Origin: a virus
Length of the DNA: 31,419 nt
IMG/VR virus record: IMGVR_UViG_3300037808_001869
Coordinates: 1 to 31,419 of that record
Strand: one strand, 5' to 3'
Shown here: positions 1,735-28,893 of the stretch, piece by piece
Layout of the letters: each line of letters opens with the position of its first letter
Numbering within the stretch: the stretch's first letter is position 1
The notes under the pieces: model-generated
Database searches by the model: none
What the model saw: the letters and a program-made list of their open reading frames with translations, nothing else
Told to the model about the DNA's origin: nothing
Translations under genes and position numbers: made by a program

Positions 1735-2369
1735 GGTCTCTGCAGATCACCCAGATCAGTGACTCCCTACCGGTCTCCCACATCGTTCAGCTGGACGGCA
1801 CGGACTTCTACCGAATCTACGGGGAGGACTTCCGCTTCGTGGAGCGGGTGCTTCTCAACGACATCGAGGCCCCGAGCTTCGCGGTAGAGAACAAGACTAC
1901 TCTCCTCGTCACGCTCCCCTTTCCCCGAGACCAGCTCCGCGAGGTGATGGTGCTCAGCTCCAGCGTCACCCTCACGGAGAGGAGCCTCGTACGCATGTCT
2001 CTCCGGGGAGGCTTCATCGAGGGAATCTCCCGGCTGGTGCAGCGGTTCACGAGGAAGATGTTGCAGACGCCAGGCACCGACATCTTCGCCCCCGAAGACG
2101 GAGGAGGGCTGTACGCCCTGGTGGGCACGGCTGTATCCGCCACGTCGATCTCCGACTTGGTGGCTCAGCACAACTTGGTCGTCACCCGCACCTCGGAGCA
2201 GATCCAAAAGCTCCAAGCGCAGTCAGATCGGTACATCCCTGCGTCGGAAAGGCTGGTTGGAGTGGAGGTCATGTCCGTGGATTTCGATAGGGATACGAGT
2301 ACCCTACGGAGTAGAGTGCTCCTCCGGTCCGCGGGCGGTGATGCCCTCCTGAACTTGGCGACAGTCTGA
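1731..2369 (+). CDS. Possible gp25-like baseplate wedge protein, 212 aa
   Basis: The middle of the protein (about residues 86-130) reads as a helix followed by LQTPGTDIF, then APEDGGGL. This resembles the core of the GPW/gp25 baseplate family, where a helix is followed by a T-x-x-G-x-R/D...P-x-x-G-x-x-L pattern. A second helical part (about residues 140-170) includes a Gln-rich QIQKLQAQ stretch, and the end is a beta-like segment with VGVEVMSVDFD. It is longer than the usual 100-150 aa, with about 80 extra N-terminal beta-rich residues. It lies directly before the baseplate J-type gene, as W/gp25 precedes J in P2-like and many other phages, which supports the call. ATG at 1731 has GAGGGAG seven bases upstream and overlaps the previous stop (ATGA). 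The family call is tentative. Confidence 0.55.
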   Translation: MRSLQITQISDSLPVSHIVQLDGTDFYRIYGEDFRFVERVLLNDIEAPSFAVENKTTLLVTLPFPRDQLREVMVLSSSVTLTERSLVRMSLRGGFIEGISRLVQRFTRKMLQTPGTDIFAPEDGGGLYALVGTAVSATSISDLVAQHNLVVTRTSEQIQKLQAQSDRYIPASERLVGVEVMSVDFDRDTSTLRSRVLLRSAGGDALLNLATV

Positions 2370-5300
2370 TGGCACAGCGCGAGGACATTGCGGCCCTGCT
2401 GCAGCAGCAAACGGCTGTGTTCGATCCCACGTTGGATACGACGGAGGGTTCGCCGTTCTATCGACAGGTGATCACCCCGCTCCTTGACGCGATGGGCCCG
2501 GACCCCCTGACGACTCCGCCCATGGAGTTCATCAAGGACCGCGTCCGCAAGGAGTACCCCCTCCTCGGCCTCGATGACGACGAGCCCCTGATGGACATGG
2601 TGGCCAAACCCCTCGCCCTGGCGATGGGGGCACTGAACGACCAGATCCTACGAGTCAAGCAGAAGCAGTCCCTGGCTCGCCCGGACCTGCTGACCGAGCC
2701 CGACGCCGACGACCTCATGGGCAACTGGTTCATCACTCGGGAACAGGGCATCCGGCCCGCCGCGTTCGTCCGGGTGTTCTACTCCTCGCCGACCCCCGTG
2801 TCGGTGAACCCGTCGCACCGCTTCTTCACCAGCGGGGGCCTGAACTTCTTCCCCCCGAACTCGCAGACCTTCAGCAGTGTGCAGATGGCCACGCAGATGT
2901 CTGGGGAGGAGTACTTCGTCGAGTTCCTCGTGCGTGCGGAGTTCCCTGGAGAGGACTACGCAGTAGGGGTGGGCGCAATCGCCAACGTGGAAGGCTTGCC
3001 GAACCACACGAGGGTCTCCAATCTCGCGAAGGCGTCCGTCGGGAGGGACCGCGAGAACAACCAGGAGTTCCTCCTCCGCGCCCGCCAGTCTCTGGTCGAG
3101 AGGTCGATGACCAGCCCTCGCGGCATCGCCGCGAGCATTCGAGAGCTGGGTACGATCACCCGCGTCGAGGTGGCCAAGTACAACGACGTCGAGATGCAGC
3201 GGGACATCCTCACCGGCGCCGGAGAGGGGCGGGTTCACCTGTCCGGGATGGGTGTCGTCTTCGGCACGAGCCTGCTCATCTGGTCGGGGTACGAAGACCG
3301 CGGGGAGACCGAGGAAGAGTTCGTGAAGGCGGGGTACGAGGTCACCTTGCACTACGGCAAGATCCTCTACGGACTCCCCGCCTCGCAGCGACACGAGGAC
3401 TTCCTCGTGGACTCGGTGATCTACGACAGCCGAGGCTCCTTCCCAGAACTCCCGAACATTCTGCTCATCCGGCTGGACCACGACCCAACCCCGACCAGCA
3501 CCATCTCGGGGGTCATCCCCGGGTTTCTGCCCGGGGTGTCCGCTGTCATCAAGCGCCCCGGCAAGATCCGCATCTCCGACATCCCCGGAGGCATCCAGGC
3601 CCCGGTCGGTCCGACCGGAGAGGTGGAGATCCTCGACGGCGAGGTGCACATCGGAGGCCACCACGACGTGTGGCTCCGCCCCGCAGCCCCGTCATCGGCC
3701 TCGGTCACCATGTCCCTTGCGGACGAAGACCCTCTGGTGGTGGGCCTCACCCTCCAGACCTTCGGCACTACTACCCCCAACGTCGTCTCCTCCTCTGACC
3801 TCGCCCTAGACTGGGTAGACGTCGGTGTGCAGCCCGGCATGTACCTCGCCATCGACGAGGGTGCAGACGTCGGGGTGTACCGCATCCTCGCGGTCAGGCC
3901 GACGCAGCTGGTACTGGACGCCGCCTTGACTGCGTTGGATGTGGGCATCCGCTTCCAGGTCGTGGACGGGCTGAAGCTGGACCTCGTGCAGCCGCGCGCT
4001 CCCCGTATCCCCTTCGGTGCAGATGCCCCTGGAAACGACCTGGAAACGATCATCGGGTCGACTGTGGTGGTGCTCGGCGTCAACAGCCTGAGCTTCGGCG
4101 TCGGCGTCGGCGACACCCTCCGCATCCTGGGGGGAGACGACGAGGGCGACTACCTGATCCAAGGCTTCGACTCCTCCGGCGGAGGCACGACTCCCATCGT
4201 TGACCGGGCGATGTCCAACAGCTCGAGCGGGCTGACCTACCAGATCTTCCGCGCAGGAGCGGGAGTGCAGCTCCCCCTGGTCCGCATCCCCGCGGGCGGA
4301 GTGGTGCTGCTGGACAGCTCGGACCAGCCCACCGACATCTCCGTGCCCTACGCCCTTCCCGTGGAGGCTCGATCTCGTCAGGCGTTCACCGGTGCCGGGA
4401 CGAAGGCGTGCGGGGACCTCGGGTTCACCGTGCCTGGCCTGGGTCTCGCCTTCGAGAACGCCGGGGCGGCTTGCCCGTCCACAATGGAAGCGGCCCTCGC
4501 GCTCATCCAAGGCACGTTGGTTCCTCTAGGAGAGGCTCCCGGAGCTCTCCTGGACCTGGACCCCTACCCCGACGTCTCCGAAGCCGCATTCAAGGCCGCC
4601 CGAGACCCAGACGTTCTGGTGGATCTGACGGGCACACCGATCCCCGGCGCAGTCGGTAGCGACATCGCTCTGGGCATGCAGCATGGATGGGCGGCGGCGA
4701 ACGGGGAGACCTTCACCCACGCCGTGGACTACTTCGTCACCCCCGTGGGACCGCCCTCCGGCCACTCCGCCTACGCCCCAGGGGCGGCGCACGTCGCTTC
4801 GTACGATTTCGGGTTCGAGCGGGGGTGGACCATGTCCCTGGCCCCGCGGGCCTTCTACCTCGCAGGAACCCCCTGCGAAGTTCAGGGGATCTTGACGGGG
4901 TTCGGTAAGGGGAGGAACGACCTCGTAGCGGACATCGCCGGGGGAGGGCCGTACACCGCTTTCTGGGAGAGCGCCCAGACCCCCCTGGGAGTCATTCCCG
5001 TACGAGGGCTGTGCTCCGCGGCGGACTTCGACCCCTCTTGGGAGTGGGGCTACTACCTGGGCTACAACTGGCCGTTGGTACTGCAGGCAGGACAGACCTA
5101 CTCGGATGTCTTCCCTGTGCAGGGAACCAGCGACCCCACTGCGGACGGCATGGCAGTGGGGACGCAGCTGCTGATGCGGCTGCTGTCGGCCCCCAGCAAG
5201 TACTCGGACGACTGCTTGGAGTGCGACGGGTACATCTTCTGCGTGACGTTGGACCCGACGGGCATCTTCCTGAACTACGACCTTCCTGCTGCGGGGCGCA

Positions 5301-8300
5301 CCTACGTCAACGCCATCACGGACTGGTTGACAAGGACGATCTCCGCGTTCTTCCCCTCGTTCGTGGCGAACATCCCTCCACTTATCGAGGCCGTCGACGG
5401 AGGGCTCAGGCTCAACTGGAACCGGCAGGGGTCGGTGGGCCTGGACAACGACGCGGTCGCCACAGCCATGCAGTTCGAGGTCTGTATTCCTCGAGAGCTG
5501 GTCGGCTGTTGCAGCAACCTCTTCATCGCATTCCCTGACGTTGACCTCGACCTCCTGCTGCGGAAGCTGTCGGACTGGGTGCAGGCCGCGGACACGGACA
5601 TCTCCTCCACGAGCGCACTCAACCTGCTGCGGGAGATCATTAACCTCCTCCCGAATGGCGAGCCCCCGTTGTGTGGCGCCATCGACGGGGACACGCTGCA
5701 GTTGACCGGAGGGCCGAATGTGGGCGGCTACGTGGTGGACAGCACCTACGAGCTGTCCCTGGACGTCACCCCGCTGGCCGGGGGCCTGGGCCTGCTGATG
5801 GCGCAGAAGGTGGTCGAGGGCGGAGACTTCTTCCACCTCATCGAGGGGCTGAGCGTCGCCTCCGCATTGATGGCGACGTCCAACAACGCCGCTGCTAACG
5901 ACCTGCTGGCGGATCTGCTGGCGGAACTGGAGCCGGGAGGCAACCAGGCGGCGGCCCTGCAGCTGCTCGCCGACTACCAGACCGGTCTCGACCTGTTCCG
6001 TCCCGTGCTGAAGATGTGCGCGGTGGGCATCAGAGGGCAGTTCCCGGTGGATCCGTGGAAGCCCTACTGCGAGATGTTCGCCTCCGGGTTCCCCGCCGTG
6101 CCGCCTCTCCCAGGTATCCCGCCCTTCGAGGCGGAGATCTGCGACAACTACGGCGACGCCGCCGACCCCTTCGACCTGCTGGTGGACCTCATCGCCTGGG
6201 TGTTCGAGTCGCTGCGGCTGATGGGCTTCGACCTGCCGCAGAACTTCGACGTCACCTTCAGTGAGATCCTGGCGGGCCTCCTGAACGGCATGAAGGCGCC
6301 GTACTGCGTGGGCTCCCGCACCTGTACCGGACAGATCCGCCTCTACTTCCACGAGCCAACCACGATGGAGGTCGACGCAGGCCGGCAGTGCGTTGCCTTC
6401 TACGACCCCACGAACGTGGACCCCGCACAGTTCCCATACGACTCCGCGGGCTGCACCGCCTTCTGGGACGGGCACGCCCTTGAGGACGACGTGGTGGCGG
6501 GGCTCTTGGCGGGCTACGCCGACGGACTGCTCGACCCCGTTACTGTTGCCGGGTCTGACGCCTTGGGGTACAGCTCGGCGGATATGGGGGCAGGGCTCCC
6601 CGGCACGTACGAGGGGGACGTCTTGGCGGTCGCAGGGCCCAGTTACCGCCCGACGGGGTACACCCTGGCGACCTACAACGACGCGTACACGGACGGCTAC
6701 TTCATCGGGTGGGGCCTGGACATGGGCTCCTCCACCGCCGGCGTTGCTACTGCGGACACGGTGGACGGGTACACCGCTGGCTTTGCGGACGGGGTCACCC
6801 GGTCCGCGACAACGACGGTGGCGCTGCTCGGCACCGGCCTGGGGTTCATCAACGCCCTCGAGGGGAGCTACGCCCCTCCGGCAGGACCGGCCAGCGCGAT
6901 CCAGGATTACCGAGCGGGCTACACCATCGGACGGATGACGGGGCTGTTCAGCTGTCTGCTCGCTTCCGACGTCGGCAGCTTCGGTTCTGGGGCCATCCCG
7001 GTAGTCCTGGATGCCCGCGTCCCAACGCTGCTCAGTTCCACCGTGGGCGCCCTGGAGGTGCTCTTCGGCGGAGACGACGCTGCTGCTCCCTACCAGGTCC
7101 TGCCTCCCCAAGAGACGGTGGCTGCCACGTCGTCGGTGGACTACCCCCGCGACTTGAGTGTGGGCGCCCCCCTCAGTGTGGACGGCAAGGTCTTTACCCC
7201 TCTGCAGCTCACGGACCCCACCCGGGAAGCCCCGATCTCGATAGGGATCCAGTCGTACTACGACAAGGTCGAGATCCACGAGGAGACCCTCCTTCTACGT
7301 GCGAGCGTCGCCGGAGTGAGGGACACCGTACGAGTGGCGGTGGTCGCCACCCGCAACGGGAGCAACATCGTCACTGTACTGACCGACGGCGTGGACTTCC
7401 TTGGCCAAGGGGCGGCAGCGCTGGCGGGCCTGGGGCCCGTGCGCGTCGGCGACCTACTCTTCATCGACGAGGGGGCAGACGAGGGCGGCTACACCGTAAC
7501 TCGAGTGGTCAACGGCACGCAGGTCCAGCTGGACCGCCCCATGACGGACACCTCCCTGCCCGCGGACAAGGGCGGGGCGACGGCATCGTACGATGCCGCG
7601 GTCGACCCTGACCGGGTGACGGTGGGAGCGGGCGCCTTCAACTCCGCCGACGCCGGGAAGTGGCTGTCCATCTTCAGCTCGCACTACCCCGAGAACACGG
7701 GGTCGTACAAGATTCTCGCCACGGACGGGACCTACGTGGACCTGGACAACGCGGCACTGGCCGGAGCCGAGGTCAGCGTGAACTGGGCTGTGACGTCTGC
7801 CCCTGCTCTGGCACCGGCCGCGGTGAGCGGAGGCACGGAACTGGCGGTGGGCCGCCGCATCCGGGTCTACGAGAAGACGGCCGCCTCCTTCAACGTGGTA
7901 GGGGTCTCCGACGATCTGGACCCGGCCACGGCATCGTTCTACGCATGGGCCTCGGATCAGCCGGCCTCCGCTGTCTTCCGAGGCACAGGCCAGCCCTTCC
8001 GCGTCGTCCGGCCGGGAATCCAGCGGATCTCCAGCACACAGATGGAGTCCAACCGCGAGGGGTCGCTCTACTACTTCGATATCTACGCCCGCGCCTTGGG
8101 GACCGACGCCGTCCACAACGTGCCGGCGGAGCAGAGGTTCGAGGCCGTCTTCGGGACGTACCGATCGGATGGGTACCACTACGAGGTGAAGGACACCAAC
8201 TTCACCTTCTCCCCCGAGGAGCAGGTGGCCCTACGCCTGTCGCCGTCGTTCCTGCCTGTGGGACGGGACGACACCCTAAGGGACCATGTGCCTTTGAACG

Positions 8301-8806
8301 GGCAGACCCTGCAGATCTCCTACGACAACGCCCCCGCGGTGGCGGACGTGCATCGCATGCTGACCGCCCCCGGGTCCCGCACGGTGAACGCGAACCCCAT
8401 CGCTCGGCACTTCCTGCCCTCCTACGTCAGCGTGGAAGTGCAGTACTACGGCGGAGAGTCGGAGACCCTGGTGGGGGCAAGGATCCAGGAGAAGATCCAG
8501 GGCCTGGACGCCGTGGACTCGCTGACCGTGGCAGGAGCAGTGGAGACCGCTCTGAGGGAGGCCAAGGCCACCGACTGGGTCCACGACATCTACCTTGTCA
8601 CCGTGACCCACGACATCGACCGGAGGCTCGTCGGCAACCGCTCTCGTGACAGGCTGGGCGGGGACGAGCCGCAGTTCTTCAACGGCAGCAACCGCCTCAG
8701 CTACTTCATCCCGGGGAAGAACACTGGATCGATCGACGAAGTGGACCTCACCCCTGGGGACATGGTCCGTGCCGTTCGCTTTACCCTTCCTATCGCATTG
8801 AGGTAG
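2369..8806 (+). CDS. Giant baseplate J/gp47-type protein with large internal insertion, 2145 aa
   Basis: Residues 1-280 look like the N-terminal part of Baseplate_J/gp47: the phrase NNQEFLLRARQSLVERSMTS followed by PRGIAASI (about residues 229-257) matches the family pattern of an acidic/Asn-rich turn, RAR and a helix leading to the conserved beta domain. The last 150 residues (YYGGESETLVG, GLDAVDSLTVAG, VHDIYLVTV) look like the family's C-terminal part. Ordinary members have a few hundred residues; here the two halves are separated by well over 1000 residues. The insert contains several beta modules (about residues 485, 580, 1110, 1693 and 1762) and a Cys-rich segment of about 850 residues with GX3 repeats. 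In the baseplate, gp47 forms wedges linking hub to rim. The start overlaps the previous stop as TGATG; no clear ribosome site is seen, so it is probably translationally coupled. The role of the insert is unknown. Confidence 0.85.
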   Translation: MAQREDIAALLQQQTAVFDPTLDTTEGSPFYRQVITPLLDAMGPDPLTTPPMEFIKDRVRKEYPLLGLDDDEPLMDMVAKPLALAMGALNDQILRVKQKQSLARPDLLTEPDADDLMGNWFITREQGIRPAAFVRVFYSSPTPVSVNPSHRFFTSGGLNFFPPNSQTFSSVQMATQMSGEEYFVEFLVRAEFPGEDYAVGVGAIANVEGLPNHTRVSNLAKASVGRDRENNQEFLLRARQSLVERSMTSPRGIAASIRELGTITRVEVAKYNDVEMQRDILTGAGEGRVHLSGMGVVFGTSLLIWSGYEDRGETEEEFVKAGYEVTLHYGKILYGLPASQRHEDFLVDSVIYDSRGSFPELPNILLIRLDHDPTPTSTISGVIPGFLPGVSAVIKRPGKIRISDIPGGIQAPVGPTGEVEILDGEVHIGGHHDVWLRPAAPSSASVTMSLADEDPLVVGLTLQTFGTTTPNVVSSSDLALDWVDVGVQPGMYLAIDEGADVGVYRILAVRPTQLVLDAALTALDVGIRFQVVDGLKLDLVQPRAPRIPFGADAPGNDLETIIGSTVVVLGVNSLSFGVGVGDTLRILGGDDEGDYLIQGFDSSGGGTTPIVDRAMSNSSSGLTYQIFRAGAGVQLPLVRIPAGGVVLLDSSDQPTDISVPYALPVEARSRQAFTGAGTKACGDLGFTVPGLGLAFENAGAACPSTMEAALALIQGTLVPLGEAPGALLDLDPYPDVSEAAFKAARDPDVLVDLTGTPIPGAVGSDIALGMQHGWAAANGETFTHAVDYFVTPVGPPSGHSAYAPGAAHVASYDFGFERGWTMSLAPRAFYLAGTPCEVQGILTGFGKGRNDLVADIAGGGPYTAFWESAQTPLGVIPVRGLCSAADFDPSWEWGYYLGYNWPLVLQAGQTYSDVFPVQGTSDPTADGMAVGTQLLMRLLSAPSKYSDDCLECDGYIFCVTLDPTGIFLNYDLPAAGRTYVNAITDWLTRTISAFFPSFVANIPPLIEAVDGGLRLNWNRQGSVGLDNDAVATAMQFEVCIPRELVGCCSNLFIAFPDVDLDLLLRKLSDWVQAADTDISSTSALNLLREIINLLPNGEPPLCGAIDGDTLQLTGGPNVGGYVVDSTYELSLDVTPLAGGLGLLMAQKVVEGGDFFHLIEGLSVASALMATSNNAAANDLLADLLAELEPGGNQAAALQLLADYQTGLDLFRPVLKMCAVGIRGQFPVDPWKPYCEMFASGFPAVPPLPGIPPFEAEICDNYGDAADPFDLLVDLIAWVFESLRLMGFDLPQNFDVTFSEILAGLLNGMKAPYCVGSRTCTGQIRLYFHEPTTMEVDAGRQCVAFYDPTNVDPAQFPYDSAGCTAFWDGHALEDDVVAGLLAGYADGLLDPVTVAGSDALGYSSADMGAGLPGTYEGDVLAVAGPSYRPTGYTLATYNDAYTDGYFIGWGLDMGSSTAGVATADTVDGYTAGFADGVTRSATTTVALLGTGLGFINALEGSYAPPAGPASAIQDYRAGYTIGRMTGLFSCLLASDVGSFGSGAIPVVLDARVPTLLSSTVGALEVLFGGDDAAAPYQVLPPQETVAATSSVDYPRDLSVGAPLSVDGKVFTPLQLTDPTREAPISIGIQSYYDKVEIHEETLLLRASVAGVRDTVRVAVVATRNGSNIVTVLTDGVDFLGQGAAALAGLGPVRVGDLLFIDEGADEGGYTVTRVVNGTQVQLDRPMTDTSLPADKGGATASYDAAVDPDRVTVGAGAFNSADAGKWLSIFSSHYPENTGSYKILATDGTYVDLDNAALAGAEVSVNWAVTSAPALAPAAVSGGTELAVGRRIRVYEKTAASFNVVGVSDDLDPATASFYAWASDQPASAVFRGTGQPFRVVRPGIQRISSTQMESNREGSLYYFDIYARALGTDAVHNVPAEQRFEAVFGTYRSDGYHYEVKDTNFTFSPEEQVALRLSPSFLPVGRDDTLRDHVPLNGQTLQISYDNAPAVADVHRMLTAPGSRTVNANPIARHFLPSYVSVEVQYYGGESETLVGARIQEKIQGLDAVDSLTVAGAVETALREAKATDWVHDIYLVTVTHDIDRRLVGNRSRDRLGGDEPQFFNGSNRLSYFIPGKNTGSIDEVDLTPGDMVRAVRFTLPIALR
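4408..6957 (+). other. Cys-rich insertion segment of the baseplate J-type protein
   Basis: By eye, all 19 cysteines of the 2145 aa protein lie between about residues 680 and 1528; I see none before or after. They include paired arrangements such as CLEC, GCC and CVGSRTC. The segment also has long hydrophobic stretches (for example near residues 1272-1290, FDLLVDLIAWVFESL) and many aromatic GY/GF motifs. Disulphides, metal binding or membrane contact are all possible; none is shown by sequence alone. Confidence 0.6.
6498..6950 (+). repeat. GX3-type GY/GF repeats within the baseplate J-type protein
   Basis: Short motifs of the form G-[YF]-x-x-G-x-x-x-G recur: GYADG, GYFIGWGLDMG, GYTAGFADG and GYTIGRMTG. 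Related forms occur earlier in the same protein (LGMQHGW, FGFERGW, WGYYLGY). This spacing suits tightly packed helices, and resembles the GX3 repeats known from other protein families; homology is not claimed. Confidence 0.5.
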
Positions 8807-9086
8807 GAGGGAGGATGGGGCTGGAGCACCCGACCTTCCGAATGACCCCGCTCTCGTGATCGAAGATGCAACCACACCGAGAACATCGCGCGACGTACCT
8901 GAAGCCTGCCGTCTGGTTGTCGAACGGGTTCGCCGGGTCTACGACGGGCAGTACTGCGTCGCCGCACTCGGGGCACGCGCTCTTCTCCACGCGAGAGCGC
9001 GCGGCAGTGTCGACGTCCGGCAAGATGCACTCCTGCCCCTCGACGGCGGCCAGCACTTGGGCCGCGGGTAATGGTCGGAAGATCAT
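8790..9086 (-). CDS. Antisense small zinc-ribbon protein, 98 aa
   Basis: This is the only convincing coding frame in the 294-base gap between two + strand virion genes, and it runs the opposite way. It has two Cys pairs, CPECG at about residues 38-42 and CSRCGC at about 68-73, separated by about 26 residues: a typical zinc-ribbon layout, with a fifth Cys (KVGC) nearer the end. Third codon positions are strongly G/C in this frame. Its end overlaps the 3' end of the baseplate J-type gene by 17 bases. The ATG at 9086 lacks a clear ribosome site; a TTG at 9023 has CAGGAG six bases upstream and would give a 77 aa protein that keeps both Cys pairs, so it may be the real start. Function is unknown; zinc ribbons commonly bind nucleic acid or protein. 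Confidence 0.62.
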   Translation of the reverse strand: MIFRPLPAAQVLAAVEGQECILPDVDTAARSRVEKSACPECGDAVLPVVDPANPFDNQTAGFRYVARCSRCGCIFDHESGVIRKVGCSSPILPPTSMR

Positions 9087-9100
9087 GAGGGGAAGCTAGC

Positions 9101-11383
9101 ATGGCCATCCCTTGGATCGGCAACCGCCACCCTGTGCCAGAGGCAACCGGGATGCTGCTGGAAGAGGACTACCGTCTCAGCCTCAGGGACTCCCACACGA
9201 GGATCGACAAGGCCACCCTGCGGACAGAGGTCGCCTACTCCCGAGCGAACTTCACGGCCAACTTGCTGTTGCCGGAGGATGATCCTGCTGTTGAGGAGTT
9301 TGGCAACTCCTTCGTTGCCACGTTCTCGGACGTGGGCGCGACCCCAGCGGCCCCGGAGGTGACGAGGGCTCTGGTGGCCGGACGCCTGCAGCTGGTTCGC
9401 CCCGGAGCAGGCGCGTTGATGGGTGCGCAGGTGGTTGCCTCCCTCGCATCCAGGGAAGTCCAGATGGGAGAGGTGACTTTGCGCCCGGTCACCACGACCT
9501 CGGGCGCCGCGGGCTACTTCGCCGAGCCGAACTACCAGGGCGTCTGCGCCGGCTTCGTGCATGGCCCCACCAAGAAGGGGATGTTCGTCTTCCTGGTGGA
9601 CGACGGCTTCGTGAAGACCATCCGCATCTCCCCTGCTGACGACGGGTCCAGCACCCGCCCGGGCAGCGTACTCGTGGTGTACGACTGGACTCTCGGCGTA
9701 GCCGTGAAGACGGTGTGGAATACCCAGCTCGACACCGTCGACGTCTACATCCGGGATGTAGACGATGCCGAGGCAGATGCGACGCAGGTGTACTCCGCCG
9801 TGCTGAGCGCGGAGCCCAACTTCATCGCCGGCGTCGCTCTGGGAAATGTCGGCTTGGGTCCTACGGACGCGGCTTCCAATGAGATCTTCAGCCTCGTGAA
9901 CCTGGACAGCCCCACGCCCGGGGACGAGATGCGGTCGGACTTCATCCGTGCCTTCGGGTACGGCAGGCTGCTGCTGAACGCCGGAGCGGTCCTCCCAGGG
10001 GTCTACCTGGAGATGCGCCCCTCGGACATCGTGGAGGCCGACTTCTCGAAACTCCCCGAGGACGCGCTCATCCCGTGGCAGTCCGAGCTGCAGGGAGGCA
10101 ACGTCGGAGTGGAGCTGACCAGCGACGGGGTTCGCATCGACAAGCTGGACGGGACAGCGAACGGGGACCTGCTCGGCTACCTAGCTAGGGACGAGCCCAG
10201 CATGGACTTCCTCGAGGGGGTATGGCTGGAAGCGGAGCTGATGGGCACGGACGTCGACCACCTGACCTCGGAGTCCTCTGGTATCGGCGTGGAGATCTTG
10301 GACGGGGCCAACGCACTCCTCCTGGCCTTCCTGGACAACTACGCGACCAAGTCGGTGGGCGTTCTTCAGGCAGGGCTCCCCTACTTGAAGGCTTCATACG
10401 CAGCCGGCGCAGAGGTGACGTGGGACCTGGCAGCCCAGAAGATTCGGCTCTGGGCGAACCCCGACCTGGACCGCGTGGACGTGTTCATCGGGGATGACGA
10501 CACCCCCTACGCCTCCGGCCAGGTCTCTGCCCTCCCGGCCGACGCTACGTCTCCGCAGATCCGCATCGGGCACGTTGACTCCTTCACCGGCCGCCCCGCC
10601 TACGGCAAGGTGGAGTTCCGGGAACTGAGGTACAGCACCAACGCCCGCGGCTACGACGCCGTCGAGGCAGTCGTCCCGGACCTTGCGGCACTGGCGTGGA
10701 CTCGAGTCGCCACCGGACCCGGCAGCGATGCTGTGGTGGGCGGGGAGCTCCAGCTGGTTGACAGCGGCTTCGGCGGAGCGGGGCAGCGCCGGTACTTCTG
10801 GAGGACCGTCCCGAGCTACAGCACCCTGCTGGGTATGTCGGTAGAGGCCCGCTTCCTTATCAGCGCCTACCAGGACCCCACCGGGGCGCTGAACCCCCTG
10901 AACACCTCTGTGGCGGCAGGGCCACTCCTGGATACCGGTATCCAGTCGGTGCAGCTGCGGTTCGTCTCGGCAGCGGCCGGCAAGTTCGCTTACATCCCTG
11001 GAGCGACTCCCGATGACTCGCGGGACGCGGTGATCGCGCAGTCAGCGGCGGGCCAAGCCATCTCCACACCCGTCGACTTCAGCGTGGCCCACACGTACCG
11101 GTTGGAGAGGAAGCCTGAGCAGGCCATTCGTCTCTTCGTGGATGGGGTGGAGAAGATCACCATTCCCTGGAGGGATGTGGACCTGCCCGGCTCCGTCTTC
11201 GGGCCCGGAGTGGGCTTCGGATCCTTCGAGGGAGACTCCGCCACCACCACCCACTGGAGGAGAGTCATCTACTTCGTGGGGGACGGGTACGATATGGCTG
11301 TTCGCCCCGTAGTGCCCTTCGGAGAGCGTGCCCGCATGTTCGGGTCCCTCTCCGAGCTGGTCGTGCAGGTGGAGGGGATCTAA
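9101..11383 (+). CDS. Virion protein with concanavalin/LamG-like domains, 760 aa
   Basis: After about 75 N-terminal residues, the protein appears to have up to three jelly-roll-like domains at roughly residues 75-270, 310-520 and 530-750. Each shows strands of the kind found in concanavalin A-like/LamG folds, such as VSVEAR-type strands (GMSVEARFLIS), HTYRLERK followed by IRLFVDGVEK, and VWLEAELMG followed by RLWANPDLDRVDVFIGDDD. The strand pattern [HY]-x-[YL]-x-[LV]-x-[RK]...[IR]-x-L-[FW]-V-[DN]-G is typical of the fold, which often binds sugars or surface polymers. The start has AGGGGA (9088-9093) seven bases upstream. The stop is followed at once by the GTG of the next gene, so the two are coupled. 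A tail-tip or rim role in adsorption is inferred. Confidence 0.75.
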   Translation: MAIPWIGNRHPVPEATGMLLEEDYRLSLRDSHTRIDKATLRTEVAYSRANFTANLLLPEDDPAVEEFGNSFVATFSDVGATPAAPEVTRALVAGRLQLVRPGAGALMGAQVVASLASREVQMGEVTLRPVTTTSGAAGYFAEPNYQGVCAGFVHGPTKKGMFVFLVDDGFVKTIRISPADDGSSTRPGSVLVVYDWTLGVAVKTVWNTQLDTVDVYIRDVDDAEADATQVYSAVLSAEPNFIAGVALGNVGLGPTDAASNEIFSLVNLDSPTPGDEMRSDFIRAFGYGRLLLNAGAVLPGVYLEMRPSDIVEADFSKLPEDALIPWQSELQGGNVGVELTSDGVRIDKLDGTANGDLLGYLARDEPSMDFLEGVWLEAELMGTDVDHLTSESSGIGVEILDGANALLLAFLDNYATKSVGVLQAGLPYLKASYAAGAEVTWDLAAQKIRLWANPDLDRVDVFIGDDDTPYASGQVSALPADATSPQIRIGHVDSFTGRPAYGKVEFRELRYSTNARGYDAVEAVVPDLAALAWTRVATGPGSDAVVGGELQLVDSGFGGAGQRRYFWRTVPSYSTLLGMSVEARFLISAYQDPTGALNPLNTSVAAGPLLDTGIQSVQLRFVSAAAGKFAYIPGATPDDSRDAVIAQSAAGQAISTPVDFSVAHTYRLERKPEQAIRLFVDGVEKITIPWRDVDLPGSVFGPGVGFGSFEGDSATTTHWRRVIYFVGDGYDMAVRPVVPFGERARMFGSLSELVVQVEGI

Positions 11384-14300
11384 GTGGTAGACCAGTTCTT
11401 CAACGTCGGGATGCAGCCGGAGAACGAAGCTCCAACGGCACGCGTGTACCCGGCGCAGCAGCGCTCCATCATCGGGGCGACCGTGAGATTGGACGGCCGG
11501 ACCAGCTCCGATCCGCAGGGAAACCCCCTCACCTACATCTGGAACTTCGTCCAGGTCCCCATCGGCAGCACGCTGGTCTCGGCGGACCTGGAAGCGCTGG
11601 CCCCAGACGACTCGGCGGCGGGGTTTGCCCCGGACATCACGGGCGTCTACGTCGTGGGCCTGGTGGTCAGCGACGGGCAGTACTTCAGCTCGCGGGCGCA
11701 GGCCGTGGTGAACGTGCAGGTGGTGCAGGTCCCCCTCTGCTCCGACATCCTGCCGGACGGCCGCTTCTTCTTCCGGGTCCTCAGCGACCACCTGCAGCAC
11801 ATGGAGAACAGCGAGCTTCTCCCCATCGTGTGGTCCGGCTTCCAGCAGCAGGCGGCCTCGGTACTCCTGAATGCGTACCAGGCGGACTACAACAAGTCGA
11901 TCCACACCATCCTCGAGACGCAGCAGCTCCGGTGGGAGCTGTATTCCCCTCACATCGACCTGAGCGCCCAGGAGACGCAGTTCTTCTTCGGCGGGGAGGA
12001 CGATGGGGCGTCGGCCACCACTGGGACGGTCGGGGAGCCTGCTTCGGGGTACCTCCTGTCCGACAGGGAGTTCGTGGTCGTCGCGGGGGCCGTGAAGCCG
12101 AGCTCAAGCGGGAAGACGCTGAGGCTGCTGACGAGCGAGGGCGCCAACATTGGCAGCTACACCATATCGGGAGTCGGTCGTAGGAGCCTGACCTACTTGG
12201 TGGACCGCGCCACTCCCTTCCCGGACGTGGCGGGAGAGCAGATGGGGTCCGGGGCGGACCTGAACAGCGTGATCGGCAGTGCCGTGGTCACGACGCCCGC
12301 CACGAACTTCACTCTCATCGTGGGCCTGGACGCGGGGGACGTGCTCCGCATTCCCTCGGGCCCCAACGCGGGGAGCTACCTGATCGACGCAGTGGGGGTG
12401 CCAACTCCCCTGTCGCTGACGTTGGACCGGCCACTGGCTGCCACACGCACGGACAACTACGTCCTGTACAACACCGTCAGCGCCCTGATCGAGACCTCGG
12501 CAAGCAACCCCTACACCGACGTGGTGTCCATCCCCGCAGGCGAGGGCGACTTCACCCTCCTGGACGGAGAGGAGAGGACCGGCCTAGCCACGATCCGGAG
12601 CACAAGGGAGATCGCTGTCGGGGAGATGTTCACCTACACCTCTGCGGTGGGGCGATCTCTGCGGGTGTTCGGAGCCCAGACCTCGGGGCAGTTCGTCATC
12701 AGCGGGGTGAACTCGGCAGGGGACGGGTACCTGATAGCAGGCAAGTTCACCGGCACCTTCCCGCAGGAGGGGGTGTCGTACCGCCTCCCGGCCATCGCTA
12801 CGGCAGAGGGCCGGCTCCTGGTCCTCAACGACAGGGCCTACACTATTCGGCGGACGAGGAACGACGACGCGCAGCTGGCCCCGCCCCTGGGCCCCGGCCC
12901 CGTGAGCTTGGCGGTGGTGGACCAGCCGTCCCTGGTTACAGGAGTTGCCGGCCTTCGCTGGCGGATTCCGTCCACGCTCTGGACGCGGGAACTCGACCTG
13001 GAGGAGCTCGGAGTACGCGCAGGGGACGTGTTGACCGTGCAGGTGCTGCACGCCTCGTCTGGGAGAGTGGCAGAGGTCTCTTGCACGATCGTCGGCTCCG
13101 ACCGTGAGCGGGCGGCGATAGTTGTAGGCACGCAGGACATCACCAACGGAGGGGCGGGCGGGCTGACCGACACCGAGAAGGTGGATCTCGCCCTGGAGCT
13201 GGGCATCTCCGGCGCCTCCTATGACGCGCTGGGCAATCCGGTCTTGGCAGGGGTGGCCCTCGACATCGACATCGCGCTGTCCAGCCTCGGCTTCCAGACG
13301 CGGTACGACAACCTGCCCCACACGGGAGACACCGTCTTCGAGGTTGCGGGGGAGGCCTTCAAGCTCGAGATGATGTCCATCTCCCGGAATACTCTGATTC
13401 CGGTGGACGAAGATGTCGTGTCCATCCCGTGCATGCGGGAGTACGTGGGCAAAGTCTACTTGGCGGAGAACAGCGACAGCACGTTCGGCGTACTGACTCG
13501 GGACGGCGTGAGAACCACCATCCCGCGTGCCCCGGTCGACTTCGTGGAGAACCGGGACTACGTGATCGAGGGGGAGTCCGACCTGACGGGGGTGGACGGG
13601 AGCACCACGGCAGGGTCGGAGGTGTTCACCTCGACCACAGGCAGCTTCATCAGCCGCAACGTCGAGGTGGGCGACGTCGTTGAGGTGGGGGAGGAGGACT
13701 TCGTCGTCCTGCAAGTGCTCTCCGAGACCCAGCTCCAGGCCGTGCGGACGTCTACCGGCGCCGTCTTCTTGTCCACCCTGGCGGACCTGCGCTACACCGT
13801 GCGGAGGCGGTCCGCCGACAAGTACATCCGGTTCGTGCCGGGCATCTTCAGCCTCACCTCCCCGACCCCGAAGAACCTGTGGGCAGAGGTGACCTTCGTC
13901 GACAACTCGGAGGCCATCGAGAACAACTTCGGCACACTGGTCGCACTCACGAGAGAGCAGCTGTCGAACCAGGAGACGAGCTCCACGACCTACCGCGAGG
14001 CCGTGCTCGGGTTGATGTACGCGTGGGCCAACGGACCCACCCTCAACAACCTGAGGTTGGGGGCGCAGATCCTCCTCGGACTACCCGCGGCAGACGTGCG
14101 CGGGGTAGTCCGAGCCGTCAAGGACGACTACCGGGTGATCGGCGGCGTCGCCAAGATGGGCCGCCTCCTCGTGGAGGACCTGGACGACAACGACTCTCCG
14201 ACAGGGCTGGTGCGGATCTACTTCTACAAGCCCCTCGTGGACGACACCCTCGACGACTACACGGGCATCGAGATCAACCCCGCCACCGGAGCGGCCTACG

Positions 14301-16081
14301 ACGTCGACGACGTAGTCGAGCGCTTCGCGCCCCTGGGTAAGGGGGTGATCGTCACCGACTACGTCGAGGACCCGGACTGGTGGAGAGGCAAGTTCCTCCA
14401 GGGGGACACGGGGGCGGAGCTGCGGAAGTTCCACACATGGACGCTCCGCGCCAACGTGGACGTCACCGACCCGGACGACCTCCTGCTGGTAGACGAGTTC
14501 GCCTCGGCGATGGACCCCGCGTGGACCGACGTCGAGGTGGTGATGGTGAAGCCGTTCGCGGACGACATCACCATCGAGGACGACCTCTACTTCGCATTGC
14601 GGGACCACATCATCGACGACCCGTTCGGCCGCATTGAGGCGGTGGCTTCGGCGGACGCGCTCAACGGCTTCGGGGTGAGCCTGCAGCACCTGAACGTGGG
14701 GCCCGTGAACTCCCGCATGTTCTTCGTGGGGAAGGACCTGGAGACGCCCGCGGGCGGAGCAGGGCCACTCACCTTCACTTCGGCCCGCGGAGGGTTCATC
14801 GACCCTCTGGTGGCGGCCCCCTACCCTGGGTACTCGACGATCACGGCGGAGCACGGGAGCCCCCTGGTTCGTGCAGGCGACCTGCTCCGTGTCTTCTCTG
14901 GCCCCAACAAGGGCTGGTATTTGGTGGTGGGCGTTCCGACGGACACCACAGTGCAGGTGGATGCCGTCACGGAGTACGACATCCCCTCTCCGGCGATGCT
15001 CGGGGTGCAGGTAGGGACGGGGCAGGAGTTCTTCATCTTCCGCCCCGCACGGAACCCGATCCATGACAGCAGTACCGTGGCTGCCATGGAGCAGACCGGG
15101 GTCCTCAGGGTGGTCCAGGATCTCACCGGCGTGTGCTTCTTCACAGAGGGCGTGACGGTGGACGACCGCGTCCGCTTCTACGACGGCACTTGGCGAGGCG
15201 TCTTCCGCATCATTGAGGTCATCGATCCCGGGGCGGGAATCTTCCCCTGGACCCAGCTCCGGCTTGACCCGGAGCCCCCGGCGGACGCGGGGCCGTTCCA
15301 GTACGACATTATCCGGCCCGTGCTAGAGACCAACCCTCTGGTCAGAGGCACCGCGACCTCCGTAGGCACCAACGTGGTGACGATGCCTGCGGCTGACCTG
15401 GACTTGCAGCTTCTGCAGTTCGGAGACGAGCTCAAGATCGAGGCAGGGGCGGGGGCAGGCACGTACCAAGTGGTGGATGCCCTGAGCGCCACCACCCTGT
15501 ACGTGCGGCCAGCCGTGCCGGCCGGGGGCCCCGCCGACGCGACCATCACCCGCGCCTCCCTCTCTGAGTCCGACGGCATGCTGGTGGACCAGGTCATTGA
15601 CTTCTTCCCTCAGACGGAGCTGACCCTGGCCATCTACCGCCCTCGCTCGGTGGTGACGGTGGGCTTCACGGTCACGTCCTCGGGCAGCTCCTTCACTCCC
15701 TCCGCCCCCACCGGGGCTGTGCCGGGGGACTTCCTTCAGGTAGAGGGCGGAGCGGACAGCGGGGTCTACCTGCTGGATGCTGTGGGCGCGACGTTGGACG
15801 TGACGGCGCACCTCGTAGGAGCTGGTGCAGAGAACGCGAGGGTCTTGCGGGACCTCGCGGACTTCGATGTCGTGGCCCCGGGGGATCAGGTAGTGTCGCT
15901 GGCGCTGGTGGACTTCTTCTTGCTGGGAGCACGGCCTGGGGACATCCTGGAACTCTTCGCGGGGGGTGTTCCGCCTGCCGGAGAGTACGTGATCGCGGAG
16001 GTGGTGGGAGGTACCCTCACCCTCACGCAGACCCTCCCCCTGGGAGTGGCAGCTGGTAGGATCCTCCGAGTCAAGAGGTAG
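11384..16081 (+). CDS. Virion protein with N-terminal PKD-like domain and many beta modules, 1565 aa
   Basis: Residues about 10-112 form a PKD/cadherin-like immunoglobulin-fold domain: RLDGRTSSDPQGNPLTYIWN, then a GVYVVGLVVSDG strand and a final VVNVQVVQV strand are characteristic. Residues about 120-200 are helical with a conserved-looking QADYNKSIHTILETQQLRWE segment. From residue 240 to the end there are about nine copies of the beta module G-D-x-L-x-[IV]...G-x-Y-x-[IV]...L-x-[LV], for example DVLRIPSGPNAGSYLIDAV and ELKIEAGAGAGTYQVV, with two larger unlike domains between (about residues 530-760 and 860-1110). GTG start; GGAGGGG (11371-11377) lies six bases before it, inside the end of the previous gene. 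It is probably an elongated tail or baseplate structural protein; PKD domains commonly mediate surface adhesion or act as spacers. Confidence 0.78.
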   Translation: MVDQFFNVGMQPENEAPTARVYPAQQRSIIGATVRLDGRTSSDPQGNPLTYIWNFVQVPIGSTLVSADLEALAPDDSAAGFAPDITGVYVVGLVVSDGQYFSSRAQAVVNVQVVQVPLCSDILPDGRFFFRVLSDHLQHMENSELLPIVWSGFQQQAASVLLNAYQADYNKSIHTILETQQLRWELYSPHIDLSAQETQFFFGGEDDGASATTGTVGEPASGYLLSDREFVVVAGAVKPSSSGKTLRLLTSEGANIGSYTISGVGRRSLTYLVDRATPFPDVAGEQMGSGADLNSVIGSAVVTTPATNFTLIVGLDAGDVLRIPSGPNAGSYLIDAVGVPTPLSLTLDRPLAATRTDNYVLYNTVSALIETSASNPYTDVVSIPAGEGDFTLLDGEERTGLATIRSTREIAVGEMFTYTSAVGRSLRVFGAQTSGQFVISGVNSAGDGYLIAGKFTGTFPQEGVSYRLPAIATAEGRLLVLNDRAYTIRRTRNDDAQLAPPLGPGPVSLAVVDQPSLVTGVAGLRWRIPSTLWTRELDLEELGVRAGDVLTVQVLHASSGRVAEVSCTIVGSDRERAAIVVGTQDITNGGAGGLTDTEKVDLALELGISGASYDALGNPVLAGVALDIDIALSSLGFQTRYDNLPHTGDTVFEVAGEAFKLEMMSISRNTLIPVDEDVVSIPCMREYVGKVYLAENSDSTFGVLTRDGVRTTIPRAPVDFVENRDYVIEGESDLTGVDGSTTAGSEVFTSTTGSFISRNVEVGDVVEVGEEDFVVLQVLSETQLQAVRTSTGAVFLSTLADLRYTVRRRSADKYIRFVPGIFSLTSPTPKNLWAEVTFVDNSEAIENNFGTLVALTREQLSNQETSSTTYREAVLGLMYAWANGPTLNNLRLGAQILLGLPAADVRGVVRAVKDDYRVIGGVAKMGRLLVEDLDDNDSPTGLVRIYFYKPLVDDTLDDYTGIEINPATGAAYDVDDVVERFAPLGKGVIVTDYVEDPDWWRGKFLQGDTGAELRKFHTWTLRANVDVTDPDDLLLVDEFASAMDPAWTDVEVVMVKPFADDITIEDDLYFALRDHIIDDPFGRIEAVASADALNGFGVSLQHLNVGPVNSRMFFVGKDLETPAGGAGPLTFTSARGGFIDPLVAAPYPGYSTITAEHGSPLVRAGDLLRVFSGPNKGWYLVVGVPTDTTVQVDAVTEYDIPSPAMLGVQVGTGQEFFIFRPARNPIHDSSTVAAMEQTGVLRVVQDLTGVCFFTEGVTVDDRVRFYDGTWRGVFRIIEVIDPGAGIFPWTQLRLDPEPPADAGPFQYDIIRPVLETNPLVRGTATSVGTNVVTMPAADLDLQLLQFGDELKIEAGAGAGTYQVVDALSATTLYVRPAVPAGGPADATITRASLSESDGMLVDQVIDFFPQTELTLAIYRPRSVVTVGFTVTSSGSSFTPSAPTGAVPGDFLQVEGGADSGVYLLDAVGATLDVTAHLVGAGAENARVLRDLADFDVVAPGDQVVSLALVDFFLLGARPGDILELFAGGVPPAGEYVIAEVVGGTLTLTQTLPLGVAAGRILRVKR
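12105..16045 (+). repeat. Beta-module repeats in the 1565 aa virion protein
   Basis: Copies are seen near nucleotides 12105-12225, 12332-12440, 12650-12750, 13668-13750, 14872-14970, 15160-15280, 15418-15520, 15721-15820 and 15931-16045. Conserved positions are G-D, a following L/V-x-I/V strand, a G-x-x-x-G turn before an aromatic (Y/W/F), an I/V strand, and a last L-x-L/V strand often ending D or R. The last four are nearly tandem at the C-terminus. Confidence 0.68.
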
Positions 16082-16085
16082 GCAA

Positions 16086-16739
16086 ATGAGCATCGCGCAC
16101 AGGTTCAAGGATATCGCTCAGCTCGCGGATCGGCTCCTTTTGGGCGGCCGCCGACGAGGGAGCGGAAGCTCAGGAGGAGACGGCCCGCAGATCGGCGGTT
16201 TCCTGAAGATGGAGCTGCGCGAGCGCGGGAAGCTGGTGACCCGCCGAGAGGGCCACAACATCTGGACCCTCTCAGGGCGCGAGTTCATCGTCGAGACGAT
16301 CACGCTGGCCGCCCTGACCCCCTCCCGTGCCAAGAACCGGGACGATGCGCTCCGCTACTTCGGGTTCGGCATCGGCATCACCCCTGAGGTCGCCGAGGTG
16401 ACCCGCTTGGTCTCCCCGGTGGAGTACCAGACGAGCCTGTTCCTGGCCCCCGCCCAGGTGCCCGTCACCTTCCCCTCCGCCTCCCTCGGCACCGCGCGCA
16501 CGTCGGTGCAGCTCCGCCGGGAGTACTCCGAGAACGAGTTGAGCCTGCCGAACCCCGTGGTGCTGACGGAGTTCGGCTGCTTCACCGATGGCAACCCCGC
16601 GGTCAACAACGAGGTGGGCAGACCCACCGACCTCGCCACCGCAGGCTCCCAGGCGCCGGTGGGTTACAAGCCCTTCGACCCCTTCACCAAGAACAGCAAC
16701 CGCACCCTCGAGGTGATTTACGAACTGAGGGTCGTGTAG
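16086..16739 (+). CDS. Putative virion-associated protein, 217 aa
   Basis: The family is not recognised. A basic N-terminus with a Gly/Ser-rich linker (GGRRRGSGSSGGDG, about residues 20-33) leads into a beta-rich domain with KMELRERGKLVTRREGHN and, near the end, NRTLEVIYELRVV. One region (about residues 90-110) reads YFGFGIGITPEVAEVT, and the protein refers to itself twice with long loops rich in Pro and Thr. A single Cys is seen (FGCFTDG). AAGAGG (16073-16078) is seven bases before the ATG, and the gene starts five bases after the previous stop. The stop touches the ATG of the next gene without a spacer. Its place between two giant tail proteins suggests a tail-fibre connector, tip protein or fibre chaperone (inference). 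Confidence 0.65.
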   Translation: MSIAHRFKDIAQLADRLLLGGRRRGSGSSGGDGPQIGGFLKMELRERGKLVTRREGHNIWTLSGREFIVETITLAALTPSRAKNRDDALRYFGFGIGITPEVAEVTRLVSPVEYQTSLFLAPAQVPVTFPSASLGTARTSVQLRREYSENELSLPNPVVLTEFGCFTDGNPAVNNEVGRPTDLATAGSQAPVGYKPFDPFTKNSNRTLEVIYELRVV

Positions 16740-19700
16740 ATGAGCGTCTTCCGCTTCCTCCGACGCCCCTTCCTCCGAGGCAACACGAACTCCCTGGTGC
16801 AGGGGGCACCCTCGCTGCGCAGCGACAATCGTCGCTCGGACGCAACCCTCAGCTTCGGCTTCGTCACCCCCGCCACGCTGTCGGTTCGAGTGGACGGCAC
16901 GCTCCGAGTAGTGGCCCTCGCTTCGGCCGCCATCAACGACATCGTCACCGCCCTCAACACCCCCATCACCGGGCTCATCGACGCCACCGCCTCAGACGAA
17001 GGCGGCTTCCTGGTCATTACGGGCAACAGCGTTGGCGATGGGGCGCAGCTCCGCGTGGAGAGCTCCGCTCCCGCCGTGGATGCTGCCGTGGACATGGGCT
17101 TCCCCACCCACCCGGACCCGTTGGCAACGTCTGACGGAGGAGACCGCTCCTTCTCTCCTGCAGGCCTGAGCGAGAACAACCCGCTCGGCACCTACTACGC
17201 CACGGGCGGAGAAGACGTCACCTCCGGCGTGATGAACAGGGCCATCGACGCCCTCGCCTACAACGGGGACTACCTCGCGGCCAGCCTGGACCGGCTCATC
17301 GCCCTCCCGATGGTCATCGATGAGATCGACCCGACCGTCGCTCCGTGGAACGCCGCCGGACGAGCAGTGTTCTCTGGGACAGCCGTCGAGCAGATCAACC
17401 TGGGCGACCTCAGCACCATCGACTCCGGTCTGTCGGACAGGGTCTACTTGGGCAAGGGCCTCTCTAACATCTCGAACCTCAACGACATCGCGGACTACTT
17501 CGCGGTGATCGAGGAGGACACGTTGTCTGAGATGGTGGTTGGCGGCGTGACCGTGCGAGTGGCCTGCGTCACCCACGGGCAGCGGTCGGTGTCGGTCCCC
17601 ACCTTCGACGCAGCAGGCAACCTCCTGGCAGGAGCCGTGCCCGATGTGGCGACGTGGACGCCGCTGGATGGCGGCAACCTGTTGGGGTTGAACTTCCAGA
17701 AGACTGTCGCCGCAGGCATCGACGAGGTCGTCTACAACACGGCGATCCGTGTGCTGGGCGCGACCTTTCAGACGACCGCGGGCGTCGAGACCTACGACCG
17801 AGTGGTCATCGCGGGCGCGGGTGTCAACGCCCCGTTCAACCACGACGGCACCTACCAGGTCGAGGCCGTCTACTCCGACGAGATGCTCCTCCTTCGCGGA
17901 GCCACCCCTCAGGACCGCGGAGAGCTCAACGACGCCCTCGGCGTCCTGGGCACTGCAGAGGTGTGGGCCAACAGCGAGTTCGCCACCGATGTGTGGCTGA
18001 CCTTCGACCCGCCCATCCCCGCAGGCAAGACGTTCCGGGTGATCGTCGGCGGCGGCTACCAGCTGGGCACCATGCCCACCGACTACCTGCTCAAGCTGGC
18101 CATCTCCACCTCCGAGGAGGTGGACTCGCTGATCCAGCAGGTGATCCGTGAGATGAAGGGGCCGCTGGTCAACTCGACCGACGACTTCACCGAGGCGCCC
18201 TTCGCGCACAGCGTGGTGGGCAACCCCTTCGTCTACAGCGGACCCCTGGATGGCAGCGGCGATCCCCTGATCTCCCTGGAGTTCCTGCACCGCCGCACCA
18301 CCCTGCAGGGTGCCTACGATGGGCAGGGACTCGGCGGAGGCGGAGGCTTCTTCGTCAACGTCGACTGGAACGCCCCGGAGTGGAACAACCAGACGCCTTC
18401 GACGCCGAGGGGGCACACCGCCGTGGGGCTCACGGGCACGGCGGCAACCGTCCTGGCAGGCAACGTCTTCTTCGATCCCGGGCAGGCGTTCACCATCGAC
18501 GACGTGGGTCGGCAGATCCTGATCACCTCCAAGGTGAGTGGGGCAGTCCGTCTGCGCGCGGCCTTCGTGGTCATCGACTACATCAACTCGGAGACCGTGG
18601 TCCTCGAGCCCGGCGAGTGGAACCCGACGATTCCCCTGGGCGGGGACTACGGCTACTCCGTCGTGACAGGCAGGTTCGACGGCTTCCCGGCGGCCATGTC
18701 CACCCACGTGCTCCAGAGCGCCAGCTATGGCCGCCTGGGCTACGTGCATGAGGAAGACCGTACCGTCGGCCGCTTTTACGGCCACCACATGCTCGCCGTC
18801 CGGGAGGCGACGACCCACTCCGATGGCGCTGAGCCCGCGGACCTGCTACGGCACTTCGTCGTCGAGTTCATCTCCGTAGGCCTACGCCTGGCAGCGGACG
18901 GGTGGGTACAGGTCGGCTTCGACCCCAGCGCCAGCTCGAACATCCGTGCCTTCGGGGGCATCGCTCCGAGCTACTCCCAGTCCGTGATTCGGCTGACCGA
19001 CACGGAGAACAACGACGGCTGGTACCTAGTCACCGACATCGACGGGGCGGCCCAGAGCCTTCGCGTCATGAACTTCGATGGCACGCACCCGGCGTTCGCC
19101 GCCTCTGCGGCTGACGGGGGCCGAGGCCACCTCTACACCCAGCCGCAGGGCACCTTCCTCTCTCGACAGGGCACGTCGCTGACACGAGTCGGCCACTCCT
19201 TCTTCGAGGACGCCATCGAGCTGAACGAAACGGTCACCGCCCCGGACACCATCTCGCAGCTGGGCGTGGTGGGCGTGGACTGGCGGGGAGCGTCGAACGG
19301 CTTCTTCGCCTACATCAACGACTCCGACTTCGCCGCGTACATCCGGGGCGACTCGGCGCGGGGCTCCGCTGCCTACTTCTCCTCGTACATGCCCGCCAAC
19401 GGGCTGGAGAGCTGGCACACGGGCTCAATCGTCGGGACGAACCTTGCTCCCGGCGGAGCTGCCATTGCTACCGCGGCAGAGCGTGGCGGCTGGGCCGGCG
19501 CCTTCGTCGCAGAGACCTGGTCCATGGCCGGGACCTCCGCAGACCCCCTCATGAGGGGGACGTCGCTGTACCTCGCACAGAAGGGGTCAGACTCCGCACT
19601 GGTAGCCGTGGGCCGAGAGGGAGGCGGCGCTCACAGCGATCCGCTGAGCCCGGACGACCTCACCTTCGTGGACGGCAAAGCGACAGCGGTCATCGTTCGC

Positions 19701-27382: not shown

Positions 27383-27635
27383 TCGTGCTCCTGGTGGGGG
27401 GTGTGCTCCGCTTATCCCGTGACGCCCGGCGGGCGTGCACCTGCCAGAGCAAAGTCACGCCCGCCTCCGTGCATAGGTGCTCGGGATCCGCGTGGCAGAC
27501 AGGGCACCAGCGGCCGTAACCACTGCCGCGGATGGGGACGCGACGACGTTGGTACTTGCGGTACTCCCCTATCCCAAGACCGGCGATGGTGCAGACCACC
27601 ATCGACGAGGCAAACAGAATGAGCGCGAGGATCAT
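27357..27635 (-). CDS. Small membrane protein with Cys motif, 92 aa
   Basis: An N-terminal membrane segment spans about residues 2-22 (LALILFASSMVVCTIAGLG), followed by a positively charged run (YRKYQRRR) and a soluble part with CPVCHADPEHLC, a C-x2-C-x7-C with adjacent His residues, which resembles a zinc-binding knuckle. The C-terminus is Ser/Pro/Arg-rich and probably unstructured; its end is inside the next gene by 26 bases. ATG at 27635 overlaps the previous gene's stop (ATGA). The charge rule suggests the soluble part lies in the cytoplasm. A membrane anchor for replication or a superinfection or host-envelope factor are possible; nothing distinguishes them. Confidence 0.65.
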   Translation of the reverse strand: MILALILFASSMVVCTIAGLGIGEYRKYQRRRVPIRGSGYGRWCPVCHADPEHLCTEAGVTLLWQVHARRASRDKRSTPPTRSTNGSPPPRH

Positions 27636-28855: not shown

Positions 28856-28866
28856 AGGGGTCCCTT

Positions 28867-28887
28867 CGAGCCTGCGTGACAGGCTCG
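28867..28887 (-). promoter_or_regulatory. Hairpin just upstream of the recA-like ribosome site
   Basis: A perfect 8-base-pair stem (CGAGCCTG / CAGGCTCG) with a 5-base loop ends just before the AAGGGGA ribosome site of the recA-like gene. It overlaps the alternative ATG (28891) region only at its upstream side. Such a stem could cap the ribosome site, mark a processing site, or attenuate transcription; no T-run follows. Confidence 0.4.
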
Positions 28888-28893
28888 TCATGG

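Follow-up and report, generated by a model that had tools for sequence, protein, structure and literature searches.

The window analysed here, a 31,419-nt viral DNA fragment (IMG/VR record IMGVR_UViG_3300037808_001869), contains the ORF P0001, and the Cys-rich form of the encoded protein is known from this 31-kb fragment and five further contigs. The features of P0001 are as follows, with residue numbers referring to the P0001 protein.

2369-8806, plus strand: P0001, baseplate wedge (Baseplate_J-type) protein of 2145 aa, an open ORF matching PHROG_6, with Pfam Baseplate_J found in its relatives
2492-3187, plus strand: N-terminal J-like module, residues 42-273, matched by PHROG_6 and lying within the part aligned by the family profile (5-677)
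4379-6301, plus strand: variable slot 1, residues ~671-1311, left unaligned by the profile of insert-less relatives
4409-6955, plus strand: span of the 19 Cys codons, C681 to C1529, from codon positions
4502-5188, plus strand: GY-A, residues ~712-940 with C836 and C882, first half of the accessory Gly/aromatic-repeat module, missing en bloc in L008/L010 and enriched in G[YFW]xxG
5189-6415, plus strand: Cys core domain, residues ~941-1349 with 13 Cys (15 core Cys when C681 and C702 are included), defined by invariant Cys and by homology to Cys-poorer domains
6302-6406, plus strand: first beta-hairpin of the second J-like module, residues ~1312-1346, RLYFHEPTTMEVD, from the profile match at 1312-1338 and hhalign
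6416-6997, plus strand: GY-B, residues ~1350-1543 with C1362 and C1529, second half of the accessory Gly/aromatic-repeat module, missing en bloc in L008/L010 and with five G[YFW]xxG copies
7979-8677, plus strand: C-terminal J-like module, residues 1871-2103, from the insert-less profile and the profile self-match in relatives

The PHROG_6 family 'baseplate wedge subunit' matched P0001 residues 42-273 (E 1.4e-10), and Pfam Baseplate_J (PF04865) was found in 11/13 N-termini of the family (best E 1.5e-6). P0001 alone gave no significant match in Pfam or NCBIfam, nor did pieces of the insert in Pfam, and the full P0001 sequence had no significant match among PDB chain sequences. Searched against the PDB, the N-terminal profile of the family had a weak best match (E 0.004) to 'wedge protein gp31' (8kea, chain b), which we take to be the phage A-1(L) gp31 of PMC10966104. 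In relatives, the profile of the C-terminal J-like module also hit the opposite, N-terminal end of the same ORF (E 1.7e-6 and 3.7e-5), and P0001 thus appears to have two J-like modules; the first-pass annotation had placed the Cys-rich segment between parts of a J-type protein, and J-like modules are indeed located at both ends. Tandem J-like modules were noted in the window (2369-8806), in L011 (6692-10747) and in L008 (5600-10846), and a tandem J protein may provide two wedge copies within one chain. With a homologous J module recognised by profile, as in the Baseplate_J/wedge family (gp47, gp6-like), P0001 is a predicted J-family baseplate wedge protein with two J-like modules and a modular slot that lies partly between and partly inside these modules. 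Elsewhere in the window, a UvsX-like recombinase is encoded at 27632-28891 on the minus strand (PHROG_97, E 4.3e-33).

The Cys residues of P0001 are located at positions 681, 702, 836, 882, 949, 952, 958, 1039, 1047, 1048, 1102, 1217, 1234, 1258, 1313, 1319, 1341, 1362 and 1529. Their clustering had been noticed by eye in the first-pass annotation (about 850 residues, nt 4408-6957), and this was borne out almost to the nucleotide, with 19/19 Cys within 849 of the 2145 residues (681-1529, nt 4409-6955) and none outside this span. The chance of 19 random positions of 2145 falling within 849 residues was 6.7e-7 analytically, and was reached in 0/100,000 simulations. The other large proteins of the window are Cys-poor: eight further long ORFs together have 0.35% Cys (21 Cys in 6049 aa), versus 2.2% in the insert. 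The GC content was steady at 0.65-0.68 across the Cys segment, without a shift in base composition. The insert is rich in Ala, Leu and Gly and contains only 0.8% His, and the Cys core, with -8.1 charges per 100 residues, is more acidic than the flanks at -4 to -5. The long hydrophobic helices reported earlier do not have a membrane-like character, as no 19-residue Kyte-Doolittle window across the insert had a mean above 1.51, and a membrane anchor in the insert was rejected on hydropathy. The odd number of Cys residues implies that at least one is unpaired or paired between subunits, and the low Cys content of the other large ORFs makes it likelier that the partners are inside the insert or between copies of the insert.

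To survey the distribution of the segment, two IMG/VR relatives (84% and 71%) were used as seeds for successive profile searches, which gave a family of ~60 homologous IMG/VR loci (designated by L numbers), mostly on 70-210 kb contigs and encoding proteins of 1256-2322 aa. The profile of the insert-less relatives aligned with P0001 only at residues 5-677, 1312-1338 and 1871-2103, plus a repeat at 1660-1729, and by leaving the Cys-rich segment unaligned it supported the earlier view of this segment as an addition relative to most homologues. Alignment of the region throughout with ordinary gp47 was not observed, as L011 and dozens of other homologues have a different, shorter segment at this position. 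When measured between the motifs PYALPVEA and RLYFHEPT, the slot was ~93-107 aa long in the group with the smallest version and 177-236 aa long in the main clade, ~180-215 aa being the commonest length; L008 has 442 aa here and the window 644 aa, and the family range is ~93-692 aa. Whole proteins of the main clade contained 0-9 Cys, mostly 1-5, in scattered positions, and most of the relatives lacking the insert had 0-6. Judged from these alignments, the modular slot that holds the Cys segment is variable among related phages, with the baseplate wedge protein as its platform.

The inserts of the window (4394-6991) and L002 (7805-10393) were 73% identical, while the N- and C-terminal parts of these proteins shared 94% and 92% identity; the insert may have diverged faster or may have been exchanged. 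A Cys at position ~2007 (CANP/CADP...RHFLP) was present in L003, L008, L087, L091, L093, L095 and L098, and lacking in the window and L002. Using tblastn, the Cys insert had no match in the 50,697 phage records of INPHARED, where matches to cultured phages were limited to the end modules of the protein. The best cultured-phage match to L093 was the 'baseplate wedge subunit' gp188 of Bacillus phage G (residues 43-274, 28.5% identity, E 2e-15), in which the N-terminal module only is matched, with no counterpart of the Cys insert.

A profile of the window-clade insert (residues 671-1350 and equivalents) matched the slots of L093, L095, L082, L079, L087/L088, L094 and L091 (E 1e-39 to 1e-22), as well as the slot of L098 (E 1e-8). 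In a FastTree phylogeny of the conserved ends, the proteins with Cys-core-type slots formed a single group (support 0.976) with the window clade inside (support 1.0). The slot domain of the sister group is laid out in the same way with 3-6 Cys, and being far poorer in Cys it indicates that the fold does not require most of the Cys residues. The L098 homologue (6646-12969, 2108 aa) contains 17 Cys, and Trp and Pro are abundant in its 692-aa slot; most of the Cys positions of L098 differ from those of the window, which suggests independent gain of Cys in the same slot. Most of the Cys set was gained in the window clade, and L098 has extra Cys of its own. Derivation of the Cys core from the ordinary slot domain was also considered and was not shown, since hhalign of the two aligned only the beta-hairpin that follows (28 columns, probability 82%).

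The full set of core Cys was present in six contigs (the window, L002, L003, L008, L009 and L010), three of which (L008, L009 and L010) are near-identical. All 15 core Cys were invariant among five sequences, versus 213/467 (46%) of the ungapped insert columns, a comparison of effectively four lineages because L008 and L010 are nearly identical; Ala, Met and Leu were freely exchanged in columns of the same insert. The segment had been described as a single insert, which required correction: residues ~712-940 and ~1350-1543, with Cys 836, 882, 1362 and 1529, are jointly missing in L008 and L010 with the other 15 Cys kept, and C1362 and C1529 are located past the first beta-hairpin of the second J-like module. 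A partial L009 sequence showed the same Cys series as L008 and L010, and the accessory module with its four Cys is carried by the window and by the two relatives closest to it. The G[YFW]xxG motif is present in three copies in GY-A (reached in 5/1000 shuffles) and five copies in GY-B (0/1000). As GY-A and GY-B are present or absent together despite being 400 residues apart, they probably form one discontinuous domain, which would lie between the Cys core and the body of the wedge. The co-occurrence of C836 and C882 was discounted as evidence for a disulphide, since both are in one segment that is missing as a whole. The family thus contains a traceable series from a minimal slot via a Cys-poor domain and a 15-Cys domain to a 19-Cys domain with a second module, which illustrates how a virion protein gains a Cys-rich extension.

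Structure prediction was uninformative on distances between Cys residues, with AlphaFold2 models of the insert (pLDDT 28.8 from five sequences) and of the L008 core (pLDDT 47.6 from 13 sequences) both unusable for this purpose. Foldseek searches of PDB and BFVD returned no match at E <= 0.001, and the Cys core profile gave no significant match to PDB chain sequences. A search for a phage-borne oxidoreductase gave no thioredoxin match in five contig fragments, which counts against the disulphide reading favoured below.

On balance we favour, with moderate confidence, a disulphide-stabilised external extension of the wedge formed by the slot modules and analogous to the spike cage of AlgoCIS; each element of this reading has a precedent among known phages and injection systems. 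The Cys-rich extension would project from the wedge as a peripheral element, such as a cage, a skirt or a contact surface for fibres or the host, and would be repeated in each wedge; its exposure is inferred. The Cys residues would oxidise, mainly to intra-domain disulphides, after the virion exits the reducing cytoplasm, and these bonds would stiffen the extension and possibly couple it mechanically to the baseplate. Buried free Cys, enriched by packing in the hydrophobic, Gly/Ala-rich domain of one clade, could account for the same residues without any disulphides, as phage structural proteins fold in the reducing cytoplasm, the insert has an Ala/Leu/Gly-rich composition and its Cys number is odd. 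We consider this improbable, given the invariance of 15/15 core Cys against a column average of 46% with Ala, Met and Leu freely swapped, and given that the sister domain shows most of the Cys to be dispensable for the fold. Among the functions offered by the first-pass annotation, disulphides gave the best fit to the matched gain and loss of Cys, and a four-Cys metal site fitted less well; the third function offered there was an envelope-contacting element. In the wider alignment, Cys 949 co-occurs with 1048 and Cys 952 with 1039, L094 alone gains Cys at 1220 and 1319 together, and C1341, common to 12/13 sequences, has no consistent partner. A site in which C949-x2-C952, C1039 and C1047/C1048 bind Zn or Fe-S, with the remaining Cys being structural, would have the classic four-ligand spacing of a CxxC plus two more Cys, and neither the window clade nor L093/L095 lacks any of the four. 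Metal binding of this kind is known from tail-tip proteins of the lambda gpL type, and Fe-S clusters occur in lambda-like tail tips. The ligands are not kept or lost jointly, however: L079, L082, L087, L091 and L094 have 949 and 1048 and lack 952 and 1039, where loss of the whole site would be expected, and L098 retains 1039 and one Cys of the CxxC but has Glu at 1048 (the L098 alignment is ambiguous, as the Cys of its CDG fits either 949 or 952, and its C1232 was assigned to position 1234 manually and not by MAFFT). With the other 15 Cys left unexplained and very little His (0.8%) in the segment, metal binding is doubtful. The matched sets of Cys favour disulphides over the four-ligand metal site but fall short of proof, each pattern representing about one evolutionary event.

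Disulphide-linked baseplates are already documented for the contractile Agrobacterium phage Milano, where the cross-links were seen by cryo-EM, Cys makes up 2.1% of the structural proteins, and the Cys are spread across tube, sheath, wedges and fibres (PMC10811340). Disulphides join the Milano wedges to one another and have to be broken for contraction to occur (PMC10811340), and a similar inter-subunit network could lock the P0001 baseplate until a redox cue, making the Cys a redox trigger and not internal staples; the odd Cys count leaves at least one for an inter-chain bond. Both phages have Cys-bearing baseplate wedge proteins, but many Milano virion proteins contain Cys and many of the bonds are between subunits, whereas here they are restricted to a single insert in P0001. 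With 0.35% Cys in the other large ORFs of the window and none in the J modules, only an insert-to-insert network could form, and this confinement makes a Milano-type network unlikely. If the Cys of P0001 do form disulphides, as we favour, they would add an example of a phage baseplate that uses disulphides in a different arrangement; disulphide-linked fibres are described for phage Pam3 (PMC10329688).

Another comparison is offered by Alg11 of AlgoCIS, an elongated J-type wedge protein with a spike-cage domain IV (residues 278-643) inserted in its chain (PMC8894135, PMC13314943). Alg11 and P0001 are alike in having a large extra domain within the wedge protein, and the acidic Cys core resembles the acidic outer surface of the AlgoCIS cage (PMC8894135). 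The Alg11 disulphide C268-C1000 joins the cage to the iris and is required for firing (PMC13314943), and P0001 might carry an external plug-in module that is rich in disulphides, serves as a cage or contacts a second receptor, and makes the baseplate firing-competent through its oxidation after release, with an origin independent of the AlgoCIS cage. We regard this as a speculative and rather unlikely scenario. AlgoCIS is an injection system and not a phage, its cage carries carbohydrate-binding modules that were undetected in P0001, and one key disulphide is described there against 19 clustered Cys here. At the level of sequence, neither the core profile nor full P0001 had a significant PDB chain match that would indicate homology to the AlgoCIS cage, and membership of the cage group is therefore not claimed, although a fold in common would be compatible with this sequence-level result. 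An insertion is also present in the wedge gp31 of Anabaena phage A-1(L), where it contacts the hub or the long tail fibre (PMC10966104); it comprises ~100 residues (81-180) of a 390-aa protein, and the word disulfide is absent from PMC10966104. The N-terminal module of P0001 is homologous to that of Pfam Baseplate_J and PHROG_6, from which the P0001 family differs by its two J-like modules per chain, large variable slots and length of 1256-2322 aa.

One contig of the family (L011, JAFMJM010000368.1), which codes for an insert-less homologue, was binned in an Acidimicrobiia metagenome-assembled genome (MAG). Among 296 Acidimicrobiia genomes, a homologue was found in this starting MAG only, and L011 may either be a phage contig that hints at the host or result from misbinning. 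The wedge protein of L011 contains 2 Cys, and a 1341-aa ORF downstream of its gene (13217-17242) contains 17 Cys.
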